A stretch of DNA of 27,986 nucleotides from a virus, in IMG/VR virus record IMGVR_UViG_3300027906_000110, positions 1 through 27,986 of that record; one strand, written 5' to 3'. The notes under the pieces were generated by a model, which saw only the letters and a list, made by a program, of their open reading frames with translations, made no database searches and was not told where the DNA came from. Made by a program: the position numbers and the translations under genes. This document shows, piece after piece, positions 4,858 to 5,078 of this stretch. Position 1 is the first letter of the stretch; every line of letters starts with the position of its first letter.

Positions 4858-4925
4858 GAAATGTACAACAAAATGTACAACATAGCATTTTTGAGTGTTT
4901 CAATTTTCTCAACTCCTCCGCCAAG

Positions 4926-5008
4926 CATTGGTATTACTAGCATTGGCCAGATAGCTCAGTTGGTAGAGCAACGGACTGAAAATCCGATGGCTTCTAGTAA
5001 TATCAATG
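4926..5008 (+). repeat. 15-bp inverted repeat enclosing the tRNA-Phe half
   Basis: CATTGGTATTACTAG (4926-4940) is the inverted copy of 4994-5008 with one mismatch; the inner nine bases, TATTACTAG / CTAGTAATA, match perfectly. The 53 bp between them hold the tRNA fragment. It could be the integrase core-site inverted pair at unusual spacing, or a stem closing a folded RNA that displays the D and anticodon arms. Confidence 0.55.
4945..4986 (+). tRNA. 5' half of tRNA-Phe(GAA), attP core, not a complete tRNA
   Basis: The 42 bases start at the acceptor 5' end (GGCCAGATAGCTC), include a complete D arm (GCTC AGTTGGTA GAGC) and an anticodon arm with loop CTGAAAA (anticodon GAA). They stop in the 3' side of the anticodon stem, where four of five pairs remain. 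The variable loop, T arm and 3' acceptor are absent; the following sequence (ATGGCTTCTAG) is unrelated. This is the part of the host gene copied into attP. The sequence resembles alphaproteobacterial tRNA-Phe. Confidence 0.85.
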
Positions 5009-5078
5009 ACTTAGCCGTTATAACGATGTACAACAATGTACAACATAGCCTTAAATGTACAACAAATGTACAACATAA

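Follow-up and report, generated by a model that had tools for sequence, protein, structure and literature searches.

A probable phage attP with six arm repeats around the 5' half of a tRNA-Phe gene

Directly behind an integrase gene, six copies of a 9-mer stand in two unequal groups around a piece of a tRNA gene in a stretch of viral DNA of 27,986 nucleotides (the window). This raises the question of whether the locus is a phage attachment site and, if so, into which gene of which host the phage would insert. Our analysis indicates that positions 4861-5074 are very probably the attP of a temperate phage with a lambda-Int-like integrase, with strands exchanged at the anticodon loop of a tRNA-Phe gene in the host. 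The original prediction had described a podovirus-like temperate phage, which fits a major capsid gene of SU10 type (24564-25415; Pfam 2.9e-84) and the scaffold and portal genes beyond it.

Arm repeats and the tRNA-Phe half

The features on which the attP assignment is based are the following.

3562-4857, plus strand: tyrosine integrase gene, 431 aa (Pfam Phage_integrase 2.5e-22; PHROG integrase 2.5e-52; fold match to Tn1549 Int and lambda Int)
4861-4869, plus strand: arm repeat 1 (int-side arm), exact ATGTACAAC
4873-4881, plus strand: arm repeat 2 (int-side arm), exact ATGTACAAC
4945-4986, plus strand: attP core identity block, tRNA-Phe positions 1-42 (5' half), a tRNA 5' half in 23 of 23 genomes
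4972-4986, plus strand: anticodon stem-loop CGGA-N7-TCCG, with core-type sites and overlap region deduced from the part common to the Phe block and the Gln block in the relative L003
5001-5013, plus strand: IHF consensus match between core and four-repeat arm, 0 mismatches to the WATCAANNNNTTR consensus
5026-5034, plus strand: arm repeat 3, exact ATGTACAAC
5036-5044, plus strand: arm repeat 4, exact ATGTACAAC
5055-5063, plus strand: arm repeat 5, exact ATGTACAAC
5066-5074, plus strand: arm repeat 6, exact ATGTACAAC

Searching both strands of the 27,986-base window for ATGTACAAC yielded these six exact copies and no further one; five matches with one mismatch all lie elsewhere in the window. 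The copies form asymmetric arms of 2 + 4 around the 42-bp segment 4945-4986, with the two-repeat arm on the int side, where the integrase ORF ends (4857) three bases before arm repeat 1. The arrangement originally described, six repeats flanking a tRNA-Phe segment directly after the integrase gene, was thus confirmed by exact matches. Start-to-start distances are 12 bp in the int-side arm, 153 bp across the core and 10, 19 and 11 bp in the larger arm. The repeats are paired at 12, 10 and 11 bp, or about one helical turn, and the originally described 10 to 12 bp holds inside pairs; between the two pairs of the larger arm, the fourth and fifth copies start 19 bp apart. Pair members differ in their extended sequence, copies 1, 3 and 5 reading ATGTACAACAA and copies 2, 4 and 6 reading ATGTACAACAT. 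On the plus strand of the 28 kb, the only 9-mers with at least four copies inside 250 bp were ATGTACAAC and its overlapping shifts by one or two bases, and the highest count in any of 30 shuffles was 2 or 3 copies per 250 bp. An open frame of 73 codons (4861-5082) starts in the first repeat and spans the repeats and the core; it is probably meaningless because it crosses the tRNA half.

Scanning genome contigs for the exact 42-mer returned 23 loci in 23 genomes. In all 23, the block is identical to the first 42 nucleotides of a tRNA-Phe gene, the tRNA 3' half then follows, and position 43 is T in the genome and A in the phage. ARAGORN called tRNA-Phe(GAA) in all 11 of these loci submitted to it, and a tRNA-Phe also in L010. 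The attB was therefore predictable from the phage as originally proposed, namely as the first 42 bases of a tRNA-Phe gene. The block extends to the penultimate base pair of the anticodon stem. The Rfam tRNA model matches 4945-5017 end to end at 32.8 bits (gathering score 29) because the phage sequence past the half (..ACTTAGCC) partly pairs with the acceptor strand; ARAGORN found no tRNA gene in the 28-kb window, 4945-5017 included. The original prediction missed that the phage carries the 5' half and not the usual 3' half, which changes the effect of integration on the host gene. This is an uncommon arrangement: in the portion of the Islander study available to us (PMC4383910), 159 of 3919 mapped islands have a 5' fragment versus 3760 with a 3' fragment, and 2083 of all are anticodon-centred.

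The original prediction also likened the asymmetry to P and P' arms. This analogy holds for the site counts (2 versus 4) but not for the position of int, since int adjoins the two-repeat arm, the opposite of lambda. By anatomy, the putative IHF site between the core and the four-repeat arm would make the latter P'-like. We take WATCAANNNNTTR to be the IHF consensus; the window holds four perfect matches to it on both strands together.

Relatives with exchanged cores and their integrases

Scans of IMG/VR brought up one near-identical contig, one close relative and one distant relative. The near-identical contig (L002, L009, L036 and L060 are its pieces) shows 18 differences over 8.1 kb, and its six repeats, 42-bp block and integrase frame are all intact, as in the window. 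Eight of the 18 differences fall within the 253 bp of 4858-5110 (binomial p 3e-8), so that changes concentrate locally in the attP. One inter-repeat spacer in this contig reads AGCCAAAAATG, the same version as in the close relative.

The close relative (L003, L035, L061) has an integrase 84% identical to that of the window. L003 keeps all six nonamers with within-arm spacings of 12 and 10, 19, 11, around a core unrelated to the window's: the 3' half of a tRNA-Gln. This Gln block matches the SAR324 tRNA-Gln in L033 over 50 nt with 0 mismatches, from the anticodon-stem CGGG to one base past CCA, and L034 with one mismatch. Where the Phe block ends the Gln block starts, and the two overlap by exactly 15 bp, the anticodon stem-loop CGGR-N7-YCCG. 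We consider this overlap the neatest evidence for the place of strand exchange, from which a crossover in the anticodon loop can be deduced on sequence grounds. With the crossover in this loop in both phages, the inner repeats would lie at different distances from it, at -102/+51 in the window and -69/+98 in L003.

Outside the integrase, window and L003 share stretches that are 93-99% identical. L003 matches the window past the repeats to 5119; about 2.5 kb of the window then lack a DNA match, and 99% identity returns at 7610. The unmatched part corresponds to the gene at 5079-7616 beside attP, which is DUF7178-like and seems to be exchanged between close phages.

The integrase of the distant relative (L038, L062) is 34% identical. 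L038 carries other repeats, ATGCATAC, again as 2 + 4 and with within-arm spacings of 12 and 10, 19, 11. That the geometry is kept while repeat sequence and integrase change argues that the arrangement is functional. At the place corresponding to the IHF-like site, L038 has the consensus with 1 mismatch; L003 has no match with fewer than 2 mismatches. A tRNA-like T-arm piece in L038 matched none of 52 SAR324-phylum and none of 289 alphaproteobacterial genomes, and Rfam gave no tRNA match there. Between this piece and the int-side repeats, L038 has a 13-bp hairpin (5606-5635, minus strand). In L037 and L039, related through a neighbouring gene, the stretch examined contained no repeat cluster.

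Kept arm geometry with exchanged cores in two relatives makes the attP reading strong, and a lambda-type site next to its own integrase, as originally proposed, is supported. Literature searches listed no title or abstract dealing with these phages or with close integrases that trade a 5' for a 3' core. Arms that stay while both the target tRNA and the tRNA half change show a step in how integrases switch insertion sites.

In the integrase itself, R259, R376, H377 and Y408 are invariant and H373 and H399 nearly invariant among 32 aligned integrases; these correspond to the catalytic residues of tyrosine recombinases. A search of phage records gave 248 with integrase matches, all below 60% identity and none spanning 80% of the query. 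An AlphaFold model based on 32 sequences had a mean pLDDT of 75, with most of the rest from residue 111 on above 75 and residues 1-29 and 33-63 below 50. Its N-terminal part shows strands at 19-21, 46-53 and 63-70 and a helix at 78-103; since most of the first 63 residues score below 50, an arm-binding fold there is tentative. A structural match to the core-binding domain of lambda Int is given by residues 109-206 (2oxo; Z 14.4, 1.5 Å rmsd, 93 aligned residues).

Compared between window and L003, two phages with identical arm repeats, integrase residues 1-77 are conserved at 95%, 78-110 at 67%, 122-150 at 45%, 176-185 at 50%, 216-330 at 90% and 331-431 at 76%. The two most divergent patches, 122-150 and 176-185, lie inside the core-binding domain match and correspond in the model to helix 130-147 and the beginning of helix 176-197. 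Residues 78-110 and 331-431 differ as well, so divergence is not confined to this domain. We infer that the two patches set core specificity and that the N-terminus holds the shared arms; the patches may be responsible for the switched insertion site.

The candidate host

The Phe block alone does not single out a host, as the 23 genomes with the exact 42-mer carry titles from several phyla. Only one is titled Alphaproteobacteria, the group originally proposed. The tRNA-Gln core was found with at most 3 mismatches in two of the 23 genomes, both titled SAR324; two more of the 23 (G007, G011) belong to the SAR324-phylum set and are without a Gln match. Across 52 SAR324-phylum genomes, the Phe block occurs with at most 3 mismatches in 9 (5 exact) and the Gln block in 22 (10 exact, 14 within 1 mismatch), and G022 is the sole genome with both blocks exact. 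In a sample of 289 alphaproteobacterial genomes (the class of G014), the Gln block within 1 mismatch was present in one, versus 14 of 52 for the SAR324 phylum, and an alphaproteobacterial host was set aside as disfavoured on this count. Outside these two sets, the Gln search covered the 23 Phe-block genomes.

Based on this pairing, our testable guess is that the host belongs to SAR324. It assumes that the window phage and L003 share a host group, which the stretches of 93-99% identity outside the integrase make likely without proving it. We give appreciable weight, though clearly less than an even chance, to the alternative that the attP is right and the host is not SAR324 (e.g. an alphaproteobacterium or a relative of Neisseria or Riflebacteria), with L003 infecting something else. 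The spread of the 42-mer over several phyla and the dependence on L003 speak for it, and no prophage of this type was found in the searched genomes. The restriction of the Gln core among the 23 genomes to two SAR324 members, the 14 of 52 versus 1 of 289 count and the stretches of 93-99% identity that window and L003 share outside the integrase all argue against it.

Integrase relatedness is no pointer either way. Matches to the integrase occurred in 30 of the 52 SAR324-phylum genomes (E <= 0.001), with local identities of 21-51% among the matches listed. A three-row integrase profile (E <= 1e-20) hit 7 of 52 SAR324-phylum and 9 of 289 alphaproteobacterial genomes, all distant; such relatives were counted about as common among the alphaproteobacteria as informative in SAR324, a point in favour of the non-SAR324 alternative. 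In the sources available to us, a full-text literature search on SAR324 phages, prophages and integrases returned a study of coral-reef virus-host links only. HU/IHF-family genes were present in all six SAR324-phylum genomes examined.

Predicted integration, the enclosing stem and known systems

To follow the consequences of integration, junctions were built in silico with six of the 23 host loci. For all six loci, ARAGORN found a complete tRNA-Phe on the int side and none at the other junction. Corresponding junctions of L003 with two SAR324 tRNA-Gln loci had an intact tRNA on the four-repeat side in both. In the mechanism we propose, the N-terminal domain of the integrase would hold the six nonamers, its core-binding and catalytic domains would act on the anticodon stem-loop (CGGA, 7-nt loop, TCCG), and IHF or HU may bend the DNA at 5001-5013, with strand exchange occurring in the anticodon loop of the host tRNA-Phe gene. 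As tRNA positions 1-42 come with attP, the phage 5' half and the host 3' half would make up an intact tRNA-Phe at the int-side junction. What remains behind the host promoter, at the other end, would be a dead 5' fragment. The rebuilt gene, now downstream of int and preceded by a phage leader, would be parted from its promoter, and tRNA-Phe in a lysogen would have to be transcribed from phage DNA, most simply through int read-through or from a promoter in the attP leader. In a scan of 4780-5150, no sigma-70-like promoter was seen on the plus strand upstream of the tRNA half; the scan gave one promoter-like site on the minus strand, no more than expected by chance, and no terminator.

Neither a lysogen nor an attL or attR junction was found, including in the integrase search of the 52 SAR324-phylum genomes, where matches were distant, and integration is therefore deduced. 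An attP that was once functional in a lineage that no longer integrates would explain this result, as well as the clustering of 8 of 18 differences in attP. We regard it as improbable, given that both near-identical phages retain every repeat, the whole 42-bp block and an uninterrupted integrase frame. Still less probable is a role of the repeats as operators or iterons for a repressor or replication protein, with the tRNA half a decaying gene and integration taking place elsewhere. Clustered direct repeats can be operators, and Rfam scores 4945-5017 as a whole but degenerate tRNA. However, the repeats lie directly behind int in three phages (window, L003, L038) with unchanged 2 + 4 spacing, and the switch of core, from one tRNA half to the complementary half of a different tRNA, falls exactly at the anticodon stem-loop. 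Integration without rebuilding of the tRNA, the phage bringing its own tRNA-Phe, has the least to recommend it: such phages use anticodon-centred sites, according to the part of PMC10865867 available, and the contig is a linear record that may be a fragment, but the common block is 42 bp and not about 10, the in-silico junction is a complete tRNA and the 28 kb contain no tRNA gene.

With 4861-5074 taken as attP, a further element, enclosing the core, is the following.

4926-4940, plus strand: inverted repeat, left arm, CATTGGTATTACTAG, 15 nt, 93% complementary to 4994-5008
4994-5008, plus strand: inverted repeat, right arm, CTAGTAATATCAATG, pairs with 4926-4940

An inverted repeat encloses the tRNA fragment with both core types, Phe in the window and Gln in L003, and RNA fold z-scores are -4.16 for window 4915-5020 and -3.95 for the corresponding L003 stretch, which has different arm sequences. 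Among 1116 sampled 106-base windows on both strands, attP ranks first and second by fold z-score, on a grid whose offset was picked so that one window starts at 4915 and with the top two being the two strands of one place. Shuffled flanks, without the tRNA piece, aligned as well as the real ones in 0 of 2000 cases for the window, 31 of 2000 for L003 and 529 of 2000 for L038. For flank duplex energy, shuffles as good numbered 7 (window), 6 (L002), 2 (L003) and 827 (L038) of 1000 each. With 60-base flanks, they numbered 14 (window), 11 (L002), 15 (L003), 816 (lambda) and 133 (P22) of 1000. A blind inverted-repeat scan of 4761-5200 gave a weaker result, its score being reached by 2 of 60 shuffles; the best repeat in the HP1 attP scores the same as the window's and was reached by 1 of 60. 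As a general attP feature the inverted repeat was rejected, being absent around the lambda and P22 cores, and the L038 flanks do not pair; the L038 hairpin stands in place of the stem around the core. A reading as a pair of IHF sites was likewise rejected, as its left arm departs from the consensus at 2 positions. The stem is probably real in the window/L003 pair of phages.

Two features deserve specialist attention, the exchange of cores between fixed arms and the stem around the core. They could be combined into a speculative and, in our view, unlikely picture of attP as a modular cassette with fixed 2 + 4 arms and arm-binding domain, an exchangeable core (either half, different tRNAs) and a stem that senses integration in cis. 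Only in the unintegrated phage would the inverted repeat give the int transcript a long stem. As the crossover would fall between the stem arms, integration would break the stem and join the int mRNA to tRNA-Phe. Expression of int might thereby sense integration in cis, a sib-like retroregulation across attP itself. The model for this idea is lambda sib.

The type of system is already known: the attP is lambda-type and belongs to the rare anticodon-centred class with a 5' half. Marine phages whose hosts were assigned by int/att are similar in having about 36-55 bp of exact tRNA match close to int, and SAR324 is not mentioned in the accessible main text of these two studies (PMC3861242, PMC4981710). 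The pTN3-like integrases of Thermococcales also use a tRNA 5' half as attB, restored away from its own promoter, as far as the available parts of PMC8371274 and PMC5495485 describe it. According to the same portion of the PMC8371274 review, the restored tRNA is expressed from the integrase promoter and the arrangement is seldom met in bacteria. These integrases differ in being archaeal, and integration there disrupts the integrase gene. The 5'-fragment islands of Islander share with the window the deduced crossover in the anticodon loop and an element that restores the 5' half and leaves a 5' fragment; however, no integrated copy of the window phage is known, and its sister phage (integrase 84%) carries the common 3' type. 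In common with lambda Int/attP are the asymmetric repeat arms, the core between them, a candidate IHF site separating the core from the larger arm, and the fold of the core-binding domain. The window differs from lambda in that its larger arm has four sites and its core is half a tRNA gene. Lambda has three P' sites. The lambda record annotates the arm adjoining int as 'int 4', with separate 'int 1' and 'int 2' beyond the core, which is reversed in the window. Lambda and HK022 have closely related integrases with common arm sites and different core specificity; unlike the window and L003, this pair involves no change of tRNA half.
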